Assembly (NCBI GenBank): GCA_024278345.1
Contig: JAJRTK010000416.1
Span: forward strand, 1 to 29,103
DNA length: 29,103 bases
From: a bacterium
GTDB lineage: Bacteria; CSSED10-310; JAJRTK01
Reading direction: 5' to 3'
Position numbers and translations under genes: made by a program. This document shows, piece by piece, positions 7,583-21,726 of this stretch (positions are counted from its first letter, which is position 1; every line of letters starts with the position of its first letter). Below the pieces are notes generated by a model. It saw only the letters and a list, made by a program, of their open reading frames with translations, did not search any database and was not told the origin of the DNA.

Positions 7583-7779
7583 GGTTACCGCTTGCATGAG
7601 CGTTGGGTTGGCTTCCGCTCCCATCGGCATGACCCGCGCCTTCCGCGCGAGTTCCCCTCCGTCCGCCGCTGCTCGCCTTTTCATCGCCCCGGGGTCCATG
7701 TTTTATGCCCTCAAGACGTGCCACGAAGCGAAAACCAGGACCGGCAGCATCGTCACTAAGGGGCAATGGGGAATCAGTC

Positions 7780-10700
7780 ATGAGGTGGATGGGATTCTGG
7801 ATCGCGACCTTCATTGGTGTGGTGAGCGGCGCTTTCTTAGGAGGAATGATTCACGCCGACATCGCTTTCCTTGGCGGTTTCGCGGGTTTCTTTTTCGGGT
7901 CCTACGTGGGGCTTTGGATTACCGTAATTGATGGGACGGTTCGCTGGCGCCGGTTGCAGCGGGAAATGGCGCGTCATCCCGGTGGACCCGCTCTCCGCTC
8001 CTTTGCGGCGAAAGAGGCGAAACTCCCAACATCCATGGAGGGGAAATCGGGTTACCGGACTTCCGCTAAAGAAACGGAGAGAGCGGAGAAAGATGCGAGC
8101 AGCGGCGGACGGATTGCCGCCGATGGGAGCGGACCTCAACAAGAAGAAGAAGAGGTCACGGGAACGATCAATCTCCATTTGGAGGAAGAGCTTGTCGCGG
8201 TTTCGGACCTTCAGGCGGAGGAAGAGAGCGAGGAAACCGTCGATCTCCAGGTAGAGGAAGAGCTTGTCGCGGTTCCGGACCTTCAGGCGGAGGAAGAGAG
8301 CGAGGAAACCGTCGATCTCCAGGTAGAGGAAGAGATTGGCGACGTTCCGGCTCTTCAGGCGGAGGAAGAGAGCGAGGAAACCGTCGATCTCCAGGTAGAG
8401 GAAGAGATTGTCGAGGTTCCGGCTCTTCAGGCGGAGGAAGAGAGCGAGGAAACCGTCGCTCTTCAGGTAGAGGAAGAGTTTTGCGAGGTTCCGGCTCTTG
8501 GGGTGAGGGAAGAGCGGCCCCTTCGGGATGAGGTTCGGCCGAAGGAGGAGATTGTCCTGGAGCACCATTCGCGGTGGCATCGCATTTTGCGGCCGTTGCT
8601 CTACGAGAACTTCCTGATCTTCATCGGGGCGTTCTTGACCATTGCCGGTTCAGTTTTTGGTGTGGTCAGCAACTGGGATCGCGTTGGGAGTGAGTGGCGG
8701 CCGGTGCTGGTTCTTGGGAGCATGGCGCTTTACACGCACCTTTTTTTCTTGAGCGGTTACCTTCTTGCTCGGAAAGAGCGGCTTCATCGCTTGGCACTGT
8801 CGATCCTTACGGTGCCCGTGCTCTTGTTGCCCTTTCTTTACATGGGGATCGGTAGCGTATTGATTTCCCATTGGGTGGTGGGGCTGGCTTTTTTCGCGGT
8901 TCTTTTGGCTTTGGACCTGCCTTGCCTTTTTGTGGTGGGCGGGCTGCACCATCGCTCTACGGGGCGTTTGTTTGGCATCGCATTCTGGATTCTGTGTGGG
9001 TTTCAAGTTTTGGTGGCTTGGGCTGGAGAGTCGGGTGGGCCGCCTTCGATCCTGGTGGCATTGGCGGGGTTCGCACTGCTTTATGGGTGGGTGCTTCGGC
9101 CTTTCGTGACGCGGGAGTTGGGGGAGATCCTCATCGGTTCAGCCCGTGGGGCCTGGTTCTTCGTGGGTTCGCTTCTCTTCGCCTTTAGCAGTCTCTTGGG
9201 CCAGCTTTATTTTCAGCAGCTCAGAAGCGGCGTGGCGCCTGATATTACAGCAATCGGCCTCTTTTCGGTTCTCTTTTGTTGGGTGGCACTGGACGTACAT
9301 CTGGTGCTCGCGGGCCACCCGGAGCGGAGCCGGCATGGTGAGCTATGGCGTTACCTGGCTCTGGGCGGTGCGCTGAGTGCAATTGCGGTCGCCGGTGGTG
9401 GGCGGCTGGCGGGGGACCTGGAGCCCTGGGTTCTGGCGGCAACCGCTTTGATCGGGGCGGCGCTCTGGATTCGGGCTCAGATGGCACAGCCCAACCGGCT
9501 CCACTTGTGGGGAGCCCTGGTGTTGAGTCTGGTGGCGTATGATCTGAGTCCGGGGCTTGTTTCTGAGCTTGCCAGAGCGATTGTCCGTGGAGTGGCTTCG
9601 ACGGCGGGGTACGAGGGGAGGCCCCTTCCTTTGGCCTACTATGCGTTGACGTTTGTTCCCTATCTGGTGGGTTTGGGTTGGATTTCGCTGGTGCATCGGC
9701 GTCGCAAGAAAACCGCCTGGCTTCCGATCCTGACCTGGGTGGTTGCGGTGGCGGCGGTGGGTCTTTTCTTGTCCTTTTCTCATCCCCTGGACCGCCGGCC
9801 TGCTCTGGGAGCGTCGGTGGCCTACGGCCTTCTGGCTCTTCTTGCCCATGGCTATTTTCGGTGGCGAGGGTTCTTGACGGCGTGGGCATTTTTGGCGCCG
9901 GTGGCTTCCGATCTGGCGCTGGTGGTCGGCGGTGCGGGGTGGAGCTGGCGTGCCGGTAGTCTGGCCTTGTTTGCCGCGGGGTATGGCGGTTTCGCGCTCC
10001 GGTTCGGGCGGCGTCCGGTGGACGCGGGCAGGCGGGGGGCAACCGCTGAAAGAGGAGACCGTGAGTCGGCTTTGGCCCGGGGCGATGAACAGAGCCAGGG
10101 GAACTGGAGTTGGATCTTCGGGGATTTGCCGCGGCTGGCGGCGGTGGTGGGAGAAGTGGGAATCTTGCTGAGCCTTGTTTGCCTGATCCTGGGCCTTGAG
10201 TCGTGGCCGGTTTGGGTTGGCTGCCTTTTCCTTTTGGGGGCGGCTTCAGGTTTATGGGGAACAGCCCGTTTGTACCGTTCGCGTTGGCTGGCGTTTGGGG
10301 CGGTGGCTGCCATTTTTCTGTTGTTGGGGCAAGTGGCTGAGCTGCTGGTGGTGAAGCTCGCTTGGGCCGGCGCTTGTTGGGGCGGGGTAGGGCTTCTTTT
10401 CTTGGCGGCCTGGTACGGGATGGATCGATGGGGGAATCGGCGGAGGGTACCTGAAGGCCCGGCGATTCTTGGACGATGGCCACGGTGGATGGTGGCTCGC
10501 GACGAACGGACTCTTTGGAATAGTTCATTGGCGTTGGCCGCCGGTGGAGGGCTTTTCATGGCTCTTTGGCTCACGTGGATGGGGCAGCCGGCTGGAATCG
10601 CTGGCGTGGCGGCCTGGGGCTCGGTAGCGGTTCTGGGGCTGGGACTGCTTTGGCCGTGGCCGGGGCTTTCCCCAGGATGGATCTCGGTGCTGGCCCAGTT

Positions 10701-13700
10701 TACCTTCCTCCGTCTTGTGGGGAAAGGGTTGAACTGGCCCATGGAGTGGTTTTTTCCGGCCTTGGCCCTGCTGTGCCTGACCTGGTGGGTTGCGGGCCGG
10801 TTTTGTCTCGTGGGTGGAGGCAGGGGCGCCGTCCGTGAGGGATCGGGGCGGGAGCGCGCCGGTTGGCTCTTGGTCCGGGCAGCGGGGCTGCTGGGGTTGC
10901 TTCTGGTTTTCCATGACGTGGCGGGTCGATTGGATGGGTCGTGGCCGGTCTCTGCTTGGAATGGTGGAGCCCCTTGGGCTGGTGGCCTGGAAATCCTTTG
11001 GCTGGGCCTTCTTGCGGTGGTCTTGGGAAGGAGCGCCGGGGGCCAGCCTTCTCGGATTCTTGGCCTGGCTTCGGCCTATTCGTTGGGAATGCTTCTGGTT
11101 CGAGGTCTGGAGCTGGTGGCTGGCCCTATCCTGGGTCGCCTTGGAGCCGCCGGCTGGATCCAGGAAAGCTTGGTGTCGGGCCGCTGGGGCCAGAGCGGCC
11201 TTGGCTTGGCTCTGGGCGCGGCCGCGCTCCTGGTCTTCAGTTGGGTGACAAGGAAGGGAGGCGCTGCTGGCTGGAAGAGGTTGCGATTTTGGCCGGGAAG
11301 CCAAGTTTTTGGCGTCGATCTTCTCCGGGGGTGGAGATGGCCGTTTCAGGTGGTGGGAGAGTCGGCTCTTTGGGTGAGCTTGGCTTTCTGCATGATGGCC
11401 GGTTCTTCCGCGGTGGGCGGGTCTTGGGAGCTTCCCACTGGTTTGGGGTGCGTTTCCATGGTGTTGACGGGCCTGGTGTTGCTTTTTTGGACGCTCTCAT
11501 CTCCCTGGCCGCACTCGGGTTTTCTGGGGTGGTTTTTTCTGGGCGTGAGCGGTTACAGCATCGTCTTCGGGGGCGCGAAAATGGCGGACCCGGGCTGGCC
11601 ATTGGCTTTGACGGCGGCGGCCTTGACTCTTCTGGCTCTCCTCTTCGCATCGGGTTTGCTTCCCCGTTTGACGGGCGCCCGCTGGAGGAACTCGGTTCTT
11701 GCCGTGCCTGCCAGGATTTTGGGGTTGCTGGCATTGGCTTTGGCAGTGGCAGGGATCGACCCTGTCAAGGCCTGGGCCATGGTGCTCCAAAGCCGGGACT
11801 CGGGATTGTGGGAGCTTTGGCTCGATGCGGCTGTTCCGGTGGCTCTCTTGGGCAGCGGACTTCTCTTCTTGCAGCTCAGGTTTTCGTCGGTGTCGGGTTT
11901 TTGGCCTGTGGGCGGGTGGCTTCTTGCCGCGTGGGGGACAATTTTCGCCCTGCAAGGTTTGGTGCTCATGGCTGTAGAAATGCCCGCTCCGCGGGTCTTG
12001 GGGTTTGGCCTCTCCTTCGTGGCTGGTTTGGCGCTTCTTCTGGTTGCCAGCTTCTTCCCGGTGGCTCGGAGCAGTTTTGTGGGCTGGCTGGCGGGTGGAT
12101 CGGAGGTGCGGCGGGCATGCCGTTCTTCCGGTGCTCTTCTTTTGCCGGTTGCCCTGGCCGGCGCCGGCTTGCTTGGCTGGGCTGCGGTCTCCGTGGGCGG
12201 AAAACTCTTGATGGAAATGGCTCCAGAAGTTATGGCGGCGCGGCGGAGCCTTCTTTGGTTCGGCTGGATCGGGGTGGGCCTGGCTTTGGCCGGCTGTTTG
12301 GTCGTCGCCGAACGCCGGGTCCGGTGGGGAATCGGACTGGCGGGGTTCTCCGTCTCGGTGGCCGTAGCCGCGGGAGCGCTGGGGATGCTCTTGGGCCTGC
12401 CGGCTCCTTGGATCGGGTTGGGAATCGCCGCCATCACGATTTTGGCCTGGGATCTCACCAGTGCCAAGAGCTGGCTGGGCCGGAAGAATTGGGATTTATG
12501 GCTCGTTCCGGATCGTCCAAAGGTCTCCGGAGCCGCCGAGGCCGGCGTGATCTGGGCGCTGCTTTGGGGATTGTCCTTGGCCACGCTCAGCGTGCGGAGC
12601 CTGGCCATGCCCCTGGCATGGGCCGTTCTGGCCTTCGCAACCCTTGCCGCGGCCGGGCGTTACAAGAAGCCGGCCCTGGTTTTGGGAGTCGCCTTTTGTG
12701 GCACCCTTGCCCTCGATCTCGCTCTGGTCTGGTTTGGCCTGAACTATCCCTCCGGCCGCCCCGAAGCAGCGATCTTGCCCTTCTTCGCCCTCGTTTCCCT
12801 GGGAATCGCCGAGAGCCTTGCGCCAGTAACGGGACGGGCAACCCGGTTGGTGGCCAGTTGGGACCAAGAAAGGGAACCTGACGCCAAATCCCCGCGGTGG
12901 CGGCGCTTGATTCGTTTGCTGGCGGCTTCCCGAAAGCCTCTCGCCCTGTCCGTTGGGCTCTCCAAGATTCTGGTCCTCCTGGAAATCGCCCTGGCCGCGG
13001 TCCTCTTGCAGTCCCGGGCTACCTGGCTGGAATCGAGCCTGCTGGCCGCGGTCATGGCGGGGCTTGCCGCCGGTTGGCTTGTGCGAGGAGTGCGGCGTTG
13101 CCGCATCAGGCTACTCCACCAGGGGTTTGCCGGAGTGATGGCCGCGCTCCTTCTTTTGCGCTGGTGCGGCCCCTTGACGGGGTTCTCACTGCTCCAGGAT
13201 TCCTTGTTCTGGACAGGTGCCGGCTTCCTTCTCCTGGGATGTTGGCGGATGCGAATCGGCGGCGAAACCCTCCAACGGCCATTGCTCTACTGGTTGATTG
13301 CAGCTCCGGCCGGCGTGCTCTTGCCCTGGGGAATAGAGACTCCGGGAATCGAACTGGGAGCCCCGATTGTCTTGGCTGGCGCGCTCTATCTGGCGGCTGC
13401 CTACGAGACGGGGCAGCGGAGATACCACTACCTCTCCGCCCTTTTCCTCAATGGCGGGCTCATCCTGCTCTTCGCCCAATCGGGTTTTGGGCACCCAAGT
13501 TTTTACTTCCTGCCGCTGGGGCTCACCCTCTTGCTCCTTGTGGAGCTGGAAGAGCAGCGCTTGGATCGAGGAACGAAATTCCGGCTACAAAATCTTGGAA
13601 TCGCTATCGTTTGCTCATCGGCGGCCTACGAGGCGGTAGCCGTCGGCGGTCTTTGGCCCTTCTTGTGGGCACTTCTTCTTTGCCTGGCCGGGATTTTCTT

Positions 13701-13932
13701 GGGGCTCGTCTTGCGGGTGAGAGCCTTCTTGCTCTGTTCCACGGCCATGCTAGTTGCTTTGGTTCTGGGGCAGCTTGGGCGGGCCACGCTTCAAATGGCC
13801 TTGCCGTTATGGTTCCTCTTGACCTCCGTTGGCGTCGTCATTCTAGCCCTCACGGTGGCCGCTTCGTCGAGGCGGGAAGAGATCCTGGCTTGGTACCGCC
13901 TGATGTCGGAGGATTTCGAGAGCTGGGAATAA
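7780..13932 (+). CDS. Giant polytopic membrane protein with acidic repeat region
   Basis: About 2050 residues from the ATG at 7780 (GGGGA 7-8 bases upstream); an in-frame ATG at 7705 would add 25 basic residues. Order: two N-terminal membrane helices (MRWMGFWIATFIGVVSGAFL onward); a charged cytoplasmic or exposed region of about 200 residues holding four and a half 24-residue Glu-rich repeats; then, from about WHRILRPLLYENFLIFIGAF, a continuous array of several dozen hydrophobic helices to the end. The first of these resembles the DUF2157 membrane region of the 3345 gene. There is no nucleotide-binding or peptidase motif and no enzyme signature I recognise. The C-terminal quarter has a more C-rich coding strand than the G-rich middle. 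Function unknown; transport, scaffolding or sensing are all possible. Confidence 0.85.
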   Translation: MRWMGFWIATFIGVVSGAFLGGMIHADIAFLGGFAGFFFGSYVGLWITVIDGTVRWRRLQREMARHPGGPALRSFAAKEAKLPTSMEGKSGYRTSAKETERAEKDASSGGRIAADGSGPQQEEEEVTGTINLHLEEELVAVSDLQAEEESEETVDLQVEEELVAVPDLQAEEESEETVDLQVEEEIGDVPALQAEEESEETVDLQVEEEIVEVPALQAEEESEETVALQVEEEFCEVPALGVREERPLRDEVRPKEEIVLEHHSRWHRILRPLLYENFLIFIGAFLTIAGSVFGVVSNWDRVGSEWRPVLVLGSMALYTHLFFLSGYLLARKERLHRLALSILTVPVLLLPFLYMGIGSVLISHWVVGLAFFAVLLALDLPCLFVVGGLHHRSTGRLFGIAFWILCGFQVLVAWAGESGGPPSILVALAGFALLYGWVLRPFVTRELGEILIGSARGAWFFVGSLLFAFSSLLGQLYFQQLRSGVAPDITAIGLFSVLFCWVALDVHLVLAGHPERSRHGELWRYLALGGALSAIAVAGGGRLAGDLEPWVLAATALIGAALWIRAQMAQPNRLHLWGALVLSLVAYDLSPGLVSELARAIVRGVASTAGYEGRPLPLAYYALTFVPYLVGLGWISLVHRRRKKTAWLPILTWVVAVAAVGLFLSFSHPLDRRPALGASVAYGLLALLAHGYFRWRGFLTAWAFLAPVASDLALVVGGAGWSWRAGSLALFAAGYGGFALRFGRRPVDAGRRGATAERGDRESALARGDEQSQGNWSWIFGDLPRLAAVVGEVGILLSLVCLILGLESWPVWVGCLFLLGAASGLWGTARLYRSRWLAFGAVAAIFLLLGQVAELLVVKLAWAGACWGGVGLLFLAAWYGMDRWGNRRRVPEGPAILGRWPRWMVARDERTLWNSSLALAAGGGLFMALWLTWMGQPAGIAGVAAWGSVAVLGLGLLWPWPGLSPGWISVLAQFTFLRLVGKGLNWPMEWFFPALALLCLTWWVAGRFCLVGGGRGAVREGSGRERAGWLLVRAAGLLGLLLVFHDVAGRLDGSWPVSAWNGGAPWAGGLEILWLGLLAVVLGRSAGGQPSRILGLASAYSLGMLLVRGLELVAGPILGRLGAAGWIQESLVSGRWGQSGLGLALGAAALLVFSWVTRKGGAAGWKRLRFWPGSQVFGVDLLRGWRWPFQVVGESALWVSLAFCMMAGSSAVGGSWELPTGLGCVSMVLTGLVLLFWTLSSPWPHSGFLGWFFLGVSGYSIVFGGAKMADPGWPLALTAAALTLLALLFASGLLPRLTGARWRNSVLAVPARILGLLALALAVAGIDPVKAWAMVLQSRDSGLWELWLDAAVPVALLGSGLLFLQLRFSSVSGFWPVGGWLLAAWGTIFALQGLVLMAVEMPAPRVLGFGLSFVAGLALLLVASFFPVARSSFVGWLAGGSEVRRACRSSGALLLPVALAGAGLLGWAAVSVGGKLLMEMAPEVMAARRSLLWFGWIGVGLALAGCLVVAERRVRWGIGLAGFSVSVAVAAGALGMLLGLPAPWIGLGIAAITILAWDLTSAKSWLGRKNWDLWLVPDRPKVSGAAEAGVIWALLWGLSLATLSVRSLAMPLAWAVLAFATLAAAGRYKKPALVLGVAFCGTLALDLALVWFGLNYPSGRPEAAILPFFALVSLGIAESLAPVTGRATRLVASWDQEREPDAKSPRWRRLIRLLAASRKPLALSVGLSKILVLLEIALAAVLLQSRATWLESSLLAAVMAGLAAGWLVRGVRRCRIRLLHQGFAGVMAALLLLRWCGPLTGFSLLQDSLFWTGAGFLLLGCWRMRIGGETLQRPLLYWLIAAPAGVLLPWGIETPGIELGAPIVLAGALYLAAAYETGQRRYHYLSALFLNGGLILLFAQSGFGHPSFYFLPLGLTLLLLVELEEQRLDRGTKFRLQNLGIAIVCSSAAYEAVAVGGLWPFLWALLLCLAGIFLGLVLRVRAFLLCSTAMLVALVLGQLGRATLQMALPLWFLLTSVGVVILALTVAASSRREEILAWYRLMSEDFESWE
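8182..8510 (+). repeat. 72-bp in-frame tandem repeats (24-residue Glu-rich unit)
   Basis: Units start at 8182, 8254, 8326 and 8398, with a partial unit from 8470. Each encodes EEELVAVPDLQAEEESEETV followed by DLQV, with substitutions mostly in the VAVPDL part. Near-identity at DNA level points to recent expansion or homogenisation. The region lies inside the giant membrane protein gene, between its first two helices and the long helical array. Confidence 0.95.
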
Positions 13933-16920: not shown

Positions 16921-17110
16921 AGAAACCTCCTTGCCTACAAGTTCTGACTATGGACTCTAGTATTCCTGGCTGGAGCTGTCAAAGGATCGCGTAAAAAAAC
17001 CGCTTCACCCATGGCCTCTGCCAGCCGGTACCGTGGCACTTGAAAGCCCGATCACAAACTTCCTGGAATCGCATCCGCGGTGCCGTCGCCGGCGCAAAAG
17101 GAGAAACCCC

Positions 17111-17713
17111 ATGAGCTGGATTCCCATCATTCCCCCTGACGACGCCGATGACAAGCTCGCCAGCCTCTACAAAAAACTGTCACCCAAAGGAGCGCCTCTG
17201 GCCAATATCCTGGGCATTTCCAGCGTCAATCCCGATCTCCTGGAGGGCCACCTGGCCCTTTACCGACCGCTCATGTTCGGACGCTCCACCTTGAAACGCC
17301 AGGAACGGGAGTTTTTGGCCGTTATCGTTTCTCGCGCCAACGATTGCTTCTACTGACTGGTCCATCACGGGGAGTCTCTCCGTCGGTACAAGGTTTCCGA
17401 AGATTGGCTGACATCAGTGGTTCGAGACCCGCTCACCGCCGACTTGGACCAGCGGCAGCAGGCATTGGCCCGCTACGCCCTCAAGTTGACCCTAAAACCT
17501 CACGCCATGACCCAAAACGATGTCGAAAAGCTCCGAAAAGCCGGCCTCGACAACCGAGCGATCCACGATGCCGCCCAAGTCATCGCCTATTTCAACTATG
17601 TCAACCGGATTGCCGATGGACTCGGAGTAGATCTCGAACAAGAGGCCCCGATTTATCGCCGTGCGCTGGAGGGGCTCGAACCAGGCCCACCTCCGACTTT
17701 GCCCCGGGACTAG
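17111..17713 (+). CDS. AhpD-like peroxidase-related protein, probable selenoprotein (in-frame UGA)
   Basis: Read through the TGA at 17354-17356, this is a 200-residue protein. AAAGGAG at 17097-17103 precedes the ATG by 7 bases. Residues 1-81 end RANDCFY, then U82, then LVHHGESLRRY, which continues in the same frame without another stop to 17713. In the carboxymuconolactone decarboxylase/AhpD superfamily this is the redox CxxC-xxx-H site, so UGA sits exactly at the second Cys, giving Cys79-x-x-Sec82. The C-terminal half (ALARYALKLTLKPHAMTQND, AAQVIAYFNYVNRIADGLGV) matches the peroxidase-related branch, so the gene is intact apart from the UGA. A hairpin fitting a bacterial SECIS starts 10 bases after UGA. 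Expected role: thiol/selenol peroxide or disulfide reduction. A simple nonsense mutation is the alternative. Confidence 0.85.
17367..17383 (+). promoter_or_regulatory. Bacterial SECIS-like hairpin
   Basis: ACGGGG-AGUCU-CUCCGU folds as a six-pair stem (one G-U pair) with a five-base loop containing GU. It begins 10 bases after the UGA, and the loop G at 17374 is 18 bases downstream of the UGA's last base. This is within the range known for SelB-binding bacterial SECIS elements; the loop resembles the AGGUCU loop of E. coli fdhF. It lies within the coding sequence, as bacterial SECIS do. Confidence 0.7.
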
Positions 17714-17759
17714 CGCCGGATCGAATCTGCTTGGCGGCGGAAAGCTTGGTAGTGGAACG

Positions 17760-17800
17760 TTTTCAGGGCATGATTCCTGAAAATTGTTTTCTTTTCTTTT
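17760..17800 (+). terminator. Rho-independent terminator after the AhpD-like gene
   Basis: TTTTCAGG (17760-17767), loop GCATGATT, CCTGAAAA (17776-17783): a perfect 8-bp stem followed by a T-rich run at 17784-17800. It starts 47 bases after the stop of the selenoprotein gene and separates it from the TonB receptor gene. The remaining 150 bases to the next start show a GC-rich CGGCGG/CCGCCG hairpin at 17820-17839 but no riboswitch motif I recognise. Confidence 0.75.
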
Positions 17801-20585: not shown

Positions 20586-21578
20586 ATGGTCGATGGAGAA
20601 CGCATTGTCGATCTGGTGACCCGGATCACTCTCCAGGTCTTGCAGGATCTGAATGCTCAAGCAGCACCCGACGCTGGGGCGCTGGCTCAAGTTTTGCCCC
20701 AAGGACCGGGGGTCTGTACCACCGAACAAGGGAGTGATTGCAATGGGTGTGGCCTCTGCCCGACCCTCCTGCCCCGGCAGGTGGAGGAGGTCGTGGACGC
20801 CGGAGCCGCAAGGATCGGTGGTGCGTTGGGCGTGGGGCATGGCCTGAAGGACAGCCTGGCCGGCCTCATCGATCACACGCTCCTCAAGCCTGAAGCGACG
20901 CGAGAAGACCTGCTCCATCTCTGCGCGGAGGCCCGGCGCCATCACTTCGCTTCCGTCTGCGTCAATCCCTCCAATGTGGGGTTCTGCGCCCGCGAGCTCG
21001 CGGGAACAGGCGTGCCCATCGCCGCCGTCGTCGGTTTTCCCCTTGGCGCCACGACTCCGGAGATCAAGGGCCTCGAAACCCGCCAGGCCATCGACAACGG
21101 CGCCAGTGAGATCGACATGGTCCTCAACGTCGGCGCCCTCAAGGATGGCAATTACCAGCTCGTCCTGGAAGAAATTGCCTGCGTTGTCCGTGCGGCTCGG
21201 GGTCAGATGGTCAAGGTCATCCTGGAAACGGCTCTCCTGGACGACGCCGAAAAGATCGCAGCCTGCGCCTTGGCCAAAGCGGCCGGGGCCCATTATGTCA
21301 AGACTTCCACGGGATTCGGCCCAGGCGGCGCAACGGCCGAGGATATCCGCCTGATGCGGAGAGTCGTCGGGAAAACCCTCGGCGTCAAAGCTTCGGGGGG
21401 GATCCGCGAGCAGAAATCGGCCCTGGAGATGCTCCAGGCTGGCGCCACCAGGATCGGCGCCAGCGCCTCCGTCGCCATCGTCGAAGGCAAAAAAGGCAAG
21501 TCGAGCTATTATAACGGAACCTATCAGATCCGGTTTACAAGTTCACGCCCTACAGGAACCCACCGTTCAAGTGCGTGA
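20586..21578 (+). CDS. deoC: Deoxyribose-phosphate aldolase, BMC-associated, with MITE-derived C-terminus
   Basis: A 330-residue class I aldolase that cleaves 2-deoxyribose 5-phosphate to glyceraldehyde 3-phosphate and acetaldehyde. From the ATG at 20586: an amphipathic helix VDGERIVDLVTRITLQVLQD (residues 2-21) like BMC encapsulation peptides, a flexible linker, four Cys (C44, C52, C55, C58), a helix with AGAARIG, then the catalytic barrel from LIDHTLLKPEATRED (about 94). Schiff-base Lys239 lies in YVKTSTGF; Asp178 and Lys268 (VKASGG) match the other active-site residues. The ancestral end is KGKSSY (Tyr308), like E. coli DeoC, whose C-terminal Tyr is functional. MITE copy C and loss of the stop add 22 residues. 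Activity could be affected. Acetaldehyde release explains the shell context. Confidence 0.93.
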   Translation: MVDGERIVDLVTRITLQVLQDLNAQAAPDAGALAQVLPQGPGVCTTEQGSDCNGCGLCPTLLPRQVEEVVDAGAARIGGALGVGHGLKDSLAGLIDHTLLKPEATREDLLHLCAEARRHHFASVCVNPSNVGFCARELAGTGVPIAAVVGFPLGATTPEIKGLETRQAIDNGASEIDMVLNVGALKDGNYQLVLEEIACVVRAARGQMVKVILETALLDDAEKIAACALAKAAGAHYVKTSTGFGPGGATAEDIRLMRRVVGKTLGVKASGGIREQKSALEMLQAGATRIGASASVAIVEGKKGKSSYYNGTYQIRFTSSRPTGTHRSSA

Positions 21579-21669
21579 ATCCCGTCCGGCACGCCACCGG
21601 CAAGATGCCGGTGCCACCAGGGCGGCGAAGATGATTGTAAAGCAAAAACACGGCATTTTGATAGGTGCC
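21516..21669 (+). mobile_element. 154-bp MITE, copy C, inserted on the deoC stop codon
   Basis: Ends GGAACCTATCAGAT (21516-21529) and, inverted, GGCACCTATCAAAA (21656-21669). Flanking duplications are ATTATAAC (21508-21515) and ATTAGAAC (21670-21677), a 7/8 match. The hairpin CACCGGCA-AGA-TGCCGGTG starts at 21595, the same 79-base offset as in copies A and B. The centre matches copy B closely. The differing base in the duplication is the third base of the original deoC stop (TAG in the right copy, TAT in the left). Confidence 0.92.
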
Positions 21670-21726
21670 ATTAGAACGCCCTTGCCAGAGACCTGCTTGA
21701 GAATCCCAAGTTCCTCACCGGCGGAG

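Follow-up and report, generated by a model that had tools for sequence, protein, structure and literature searches.

A probable AhpD-like selenoprotein with a CxxU motif in a thinly sampled bacterial phylum

The question raised by this locus is whether a TGA inside an AhpD-like gene ends a broken reading frame or encodes selenocysteine (Sec). We addressed it with the sequence of the window, that is, the whole stretch of 29,103 nucleotides analysed here, together with the host assembly and relatives of the gene in other genomes.

Gene structure and family assignment

An ORF caller reported two pieces at this locus, 17033-17356 and 17417-17713, as a first-pass annotation of the DNA had anticipated. 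When the TGA was taken as a residue in translation, these became a single gene with a TAG stop (Table 1), in which U is residue 82 of the product and lies in the sequence NDCFYULVHHG. The 200-residue product matched TIGR01926, "peroxidase-related enzyme", in a profile search at 145.4 bits against a curated cut-off of 81.8. The match was unbroken across the TGA, covering residues 2-174 of 200 and profile positions 1-174 of 178; both halves belong to this one stretch, which bears out the earlier description of a complete and conserved gene interrupted by an in-frame TGA. The joined product also matched Pfam CMD and, in sequence comparison, solved AhpD-like structures were matched across the TGA as well, the best being that of 6k40 AhpD (E 4e-26, residues 3-174). 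The E-X11-C-X2-C-X3-H active site is complete, with E67, C79, U82 in the Cys position and H86. These results correct the annotation to one redox enzyme where the gene caller reports two fragments.

Of the flanking signals proposed earlier, the ribosome binding site was found upstream of the ATG as described. A stem-loop does exist downstream on the + strand, but as a terminator it is weak, since 3 such sites against 1.5 expected (sd 1.2) is not above chance.

Table 1 Features of the AhpD-like gene in the window.
Feature	Position	Strand	Basis and remarks
Shine-Dalgarno-like AAGGAG	17098..17103	+	7 nt 5' of ATG; sequence reading
AhpD-like (TIGR01926) gene, probable selenoprotein, 200 codons plus TAG, Sec codon 82	17111..17713	+	Translation, family matches, alignment
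Codon E67, Glu of EX11CXXCX3H	17309..17311	+	Translation; AhpD motif residues per PMC3141380
Codon C79, first Cys of CxxU, presumed resolving	17345..17347	+	Translation, alignment
TGA, probable Sec codon 82, replacing second Cys of CxxC	17354..17356	+	Translation, alignment, relatives' codons
Codon H86, His of CXXCX3H	17366..17368	+	Translation, alignment
SECIS-type hairpin, 7-bp stem ACGGGGA/UCUCCGU, loop GUC	17367..17383	+	Folding, comparison of relatives
Weak terminator-like stem-loop with T-rich tail, tentative	17759..17784	+	Not above chance expectation

A true stop, whether from a nonsense mutation, pseudogene decay or a sequencing error in a former Cys gene, would be a simple explanation for the TGA. 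The assembly that contains the window is fragmented (550 contigs), and one base change turns TGC or TGT into TGA. Against this, the TGA at codon 82 is the only lesion in 200 codons.

Codon 82 and the downstream hairpin in relatives

A single-protein scan of the named genomes for relatives gave no match. A search of the same genomes with a three-sequence alignment returned 462 relatives, from which 80 loci with 37-50% identity were kept. Two Cys-containing relatives from related genomes were 39-41% identical to the window protein and have Cys at position 82 in the alignment. U82 thus aligns with an invariant Cys in these two forms, in agreement with the earlier placement of the TGA at the second redox Cys of the family. 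The named-genome loci, loci of other genomes and the window together gave 85 distinct aligned sequences readable at codon 82, of which 61 have TGY (TGC or TGT) and 24, including the window, have TGA; this ratio is biased because one of the two search patterns required Cys at codon 82. Loci found by the pattern [VI][SA]YFN[FY]VN could show any codon at this position. TAA, TAG or a sense codon other than Cys was found at position 82 in none of the 85 sequences. The window protein is divergent, with no more than 50% identity to any relative found, and the comparison set includes no relative of the same genus that confirms the window TGA, a point against reading it as Sec.

An in-frame TGA alone cannot separate Sec from a reassigned UGA (e.g. 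to Trp, Gly or Cys) or from readthrough without selenium. Elsewhere in the window, TGA is the ordinary stop of 6 of 10 genes, and internal stops are absent from all 10, so the host code is standard. This normal use of TGA, and the restriction of the relatives to Cys or TGA at codon 82, led us to reject code reassignment. With a tRNA-Sec of anticodon UCA and SelB also present in the host (see below), reassignment or selenium-free readthrough is scarcely credible.

The first-pass annotation had pointed out a SECIS-like hairpin starting 10 bases past the TGA with a GU-containing loop, and folding returned precisely such a structure (Table 1), with 17 nt between the TGA and the loop G. Its folding energy is by itself unremarkable relative to shuffled sequences (z +0.26 for 47 nt and z -1.33 for 38 nt), and random synonymous recoding that preserved the amino acids produced a comparably placed stem of at least 7 pairs in 1.5% of cases. 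The significance of the hairpin therefore comes from comparison with relatives. When defined as a stem of at least 6 pairs with the loop 16-20 nt past the codon and a G within the first two loop bases, a SECIS-type hairpin was present in 23 of the 24 TGA genes versus 3 of the 61 Cys genes (p 1.7e-16). A three-base loop that starts after exactly 17 nt can be drawn in 18 of these 23 hairpins, that of the window included. In a gap-free alignment of 20 TGA genes, two stem pairs showed compensatory changes (CG/UA at one, CG/AU/GC at the other), and neither the observed pairing percentage nor the covariation score was reached by any of 500 shuffles. Because related rows inflate such scores, we take the covariation as support and not as proof. 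No Rfam model matched the window hairpin.

The hairpin also leaves a mark on the protein. Gly 87, which follows the HH pair and whose codon lies within the stem, is present in 22 of the 24 Sec forms versus 12 of the 61 Cys forms, a contrast which indicates that the SECIS is strongly tied to the protein sequence. In two Sec forms, L096 and L114, the SECIS loop has moved to 20 and 19 nt past the UGA, respectively, instead of 17, and L096 has Trp in place of the nearly constant Gly 87. It had been suggested at the outset that close relatives encoding an amino acid other than Cys here, with no conservation of the hairpin, would argue against Sec. Every relative has either Cys or TGA, and conservation of the hairpin is seen among the TGA forms and not among the Cys forms.

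A tree built from the 85 proteins places every Sec form on the same side of a single branch (support 68/98, 65% of bootstrap trees), and shuffled Sec/Cys labels on the same tree need about 21 changes. This arrangement is compatible with one Sec/Cys change that may explain all Sec forms of the subfamily. The window protein is placed among the Sec forms, not the Cys forms, on a long branch (1.09). Besides the phylum of the window, the named Sec forms come from seven phyla: Bacillota, Gemmatimonadota, Acidobacteriota, Chloroflexota, Cloacimonadota, Zixiibacteriota and Myxococcota.

Sec machinery of the host and its phylum

The host assembly (6.06 Mb in 550 contigs, 87.9% complete) was searched for selA, selB, selD and tRNA-Sec, the check that the first-pass annotation had named. 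Three of the four were found: a tRNA-Sec with anticodon UCA (74.6 bits), a SelA (478 bits) and a SelB with both SelB-specific, SECIS-binding winged-helix domains, SelB-wing_2 and wing_3. A genome devoid of Sec machinery, which would have spoken against the earlier proposal, is therefore not what was observed. The fourth, selD, was found in this 87.9%-complete assembly neither by the family model nor by the protein of another genome of the phylum. The two best selD matches of the host were below the cut-off and are ThiL- and HypE-like genes by their sequences and neighbors, the HypE-like gene adjoining genes that read as HypD- and HypB-like.

Seven further genomes of the phylum were examined; selD is present in every one of them, and tRNA-Sec was found in six. 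The Sec trait thus looks general in this thinly sampled phylum, with tRNA-Sec in 7 of 8 genomes counting the host and selD in 7 of 8, and the window gene adds a selenoprotein there. We consider it far likelier that the host selD falls within the eighth of the genome that the assembly lacks. A route to Sec that bypasses a canonical SelD, in a host with SelA, SelB and tRNA-Sec as well as a selenoprotein gene yet with no recognizable selD, seems very unlikely; if true, another source of selenophosphate would be needed. In six of the seven other genomes, the selD gene has an in-frame TGA of its own, as in L116 (G002:C15:8110-9045), where it falls at match residue 11 in ...CAAGUAAK..., and from these sequences SelD of the six is probably itself a selenoprotein.

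The presence of SelB also follows the codon among the relatives. Of 23 genomes with TGA forms, 21 had a SelB above the cut-off, versus 2 of 24 genomes with Cys forms (Fisher p 5e-9); no SelB was detected in the remaining two TGA-form genomes. Formate dehydrogenase alpha was considered as a second selenoprotein of the host; its homologues there were below the cut-off and had no in-frame stop.

These results bear on the possibility of a true stop. The failure to find selD in the host assembly is in its favor. On the other side, the host has kept tRNA-Sec, SelA and SelB, the TGA sits exactly where 23 relatives have their Sec codon, with the family hairpin downstream of it at the family spacing, and the protein groups with the Sec forms on the tree. 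Together with the freedom from other lesions, these led us to reject a nonsense mutation, and we regard a true stop of any origin as very improbable. Gene integrity, Sec/Cys exchange, a conserved SECIS-type hairpin and Sec machinery are all observed, and they support the earlier proposal of a genuine CxxU enzyme. We infer from them that Sec is actually inserted, and conclude with high confidence that the window gene encodes a CxxU selenoprotein with TGA 82 read as Sec.

Known relatives, possible function and other features of the window

AhpD-like selenoproteins with CxxU are known from the Sargasso Sea (PMC1088965), and the GOS survey described AhpD-like 1 (COG2128, CxxU, 299 sequences) and AhpD-like 2 (PMC2398784). 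An AhpD-like 1 selenoprotein is listed also for Alkaliphilus metalliredigenes (PMC1794560), and a 2026 review lists a TIGR01926-type CxxU selenoprotein with MCB9421940.1 as its example (PMC13188914). The window protein belongs to the same NCBIfam family and has the same CxxU motif as this last form, from which it differs only by host and by divergence, at no more than 50% identity to the relatives found. The window gene is therefore not new in kind, as reports of AhpD-like CxxU selenoproteins go back to 2005-2008; what is new is a further member of a described selenoprotein family in a thinly sampled phylum. The CxxU motif is common to the window protein and AhpD-like 1 of the GOS survey, and the two presumably belong to the same COG (COG2128). 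One of the relatives in our set, L040, comes from Alkaliphilus and has TGA.

Two other families were considered. The window protein shares a related domain and the CFYU motif with NF041238, the AhpD-related (seleno)protein with a CFYUT motif (Sargasso Sea hypothetical protein 1); it is not a member, scoring 64.4 bits against a cut-off of 175 with a product about half the model length. The match to AhpD proper (TIGR00777, the AhpC partner) was weak, at 20.8 bits against a cut-off of 191.95, and membership was rejected. Three distant CMD-domain relatives, L020 and L024 (both from G055) and L021 (from G035), also have CxxU and TGA; L024 lies within a long open frame, in which the first AhpD-like domain seems to be followed by another.

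In AhpD, Cys133 is the attacking residue, and Sec speeds such redox steps. We propose that SelB with Sec-tRNA(UCA) would bind the hairpin and decode UGA 82 as Sec. The resulting AhpD/CMD-family protein would be 200 residues long, and its active site would read E67-X11-C79-F-Y-U82-X3-H86. Judging from Mycobacterium tuberculosis AhpD, Sec82 most likely replaces the reactive Cys133. It may attack a peroxide or disulfide substrate, after which C79 would resolve Sec82 as a selenenylsulfide that is then reduced by a cellular thiol reductant. Judged by its family, the window protein probably has a peroxidase or thiol-redox function, with the peroxidase type somewhat favored.

Sec could also be inserted into a protein that is not a peroxidase and instead serves as another thiol/selenol redox protein or as a CMD-fold adaptor. 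The relay of M. tuberculosis AhpD consists of Glu118, Cys130, His132, Cys133 and His137 (PMC3141380). The window protein has the same EX11CXXCX3H pattern and spacing, with Sec for Cys133 and Tyr81 for His132. The Tyr at the His132 position is shared with PA0269, whose authors thought that this change might weaken peroxidase activity (PMC3141380). Tyr81 thus speaks for a non-peroxidase role, as do the naming of TIGR01926 members merely as "peroxidase-related" and the solved structures of the subfamily, which are mostly of uncharacterized proteins. No Prx or AhpC gene was found among the scanned neighbors of the window gene, which points the same way. However, the remaining four relay residues (E67, C79, U82 and H86) are all kept, and the chemistry best documented for such an active site is the reduction of peroxides. 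A non-peroxidase role is accordingly a possible but less probable alternative to the peroxidase-type function.

The window holds other features of interest. One is a dispersed repeat, about 155 nt long, whose ends are complementary (GGGACCTATCA ... TGATAGGTCCC); it occurs at 823-979, 2745-2901 and 21515-21671, and at least about 40 copies with 86-100% identity are present in the host genome, one of them directly downstream of selA (C270:10722). In appearance it resembles a miniature inverted-repeat element, and it gives rise to spurious ORFs (RQDAGAT...). A 2075-codon gene at 7705-13932 encodes a very hydrophobic product, probably a many-pass membrane protein, and contains four tandem repeats spaced 72 nt (8135-8514) that encode an acidic EEESEETVDLQVEEE stretch. 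At the start of the contig, positions 17-160 consist of a tandem array of 24-nt units (CCTTCGGGTAACGCACGGCGTGAC).
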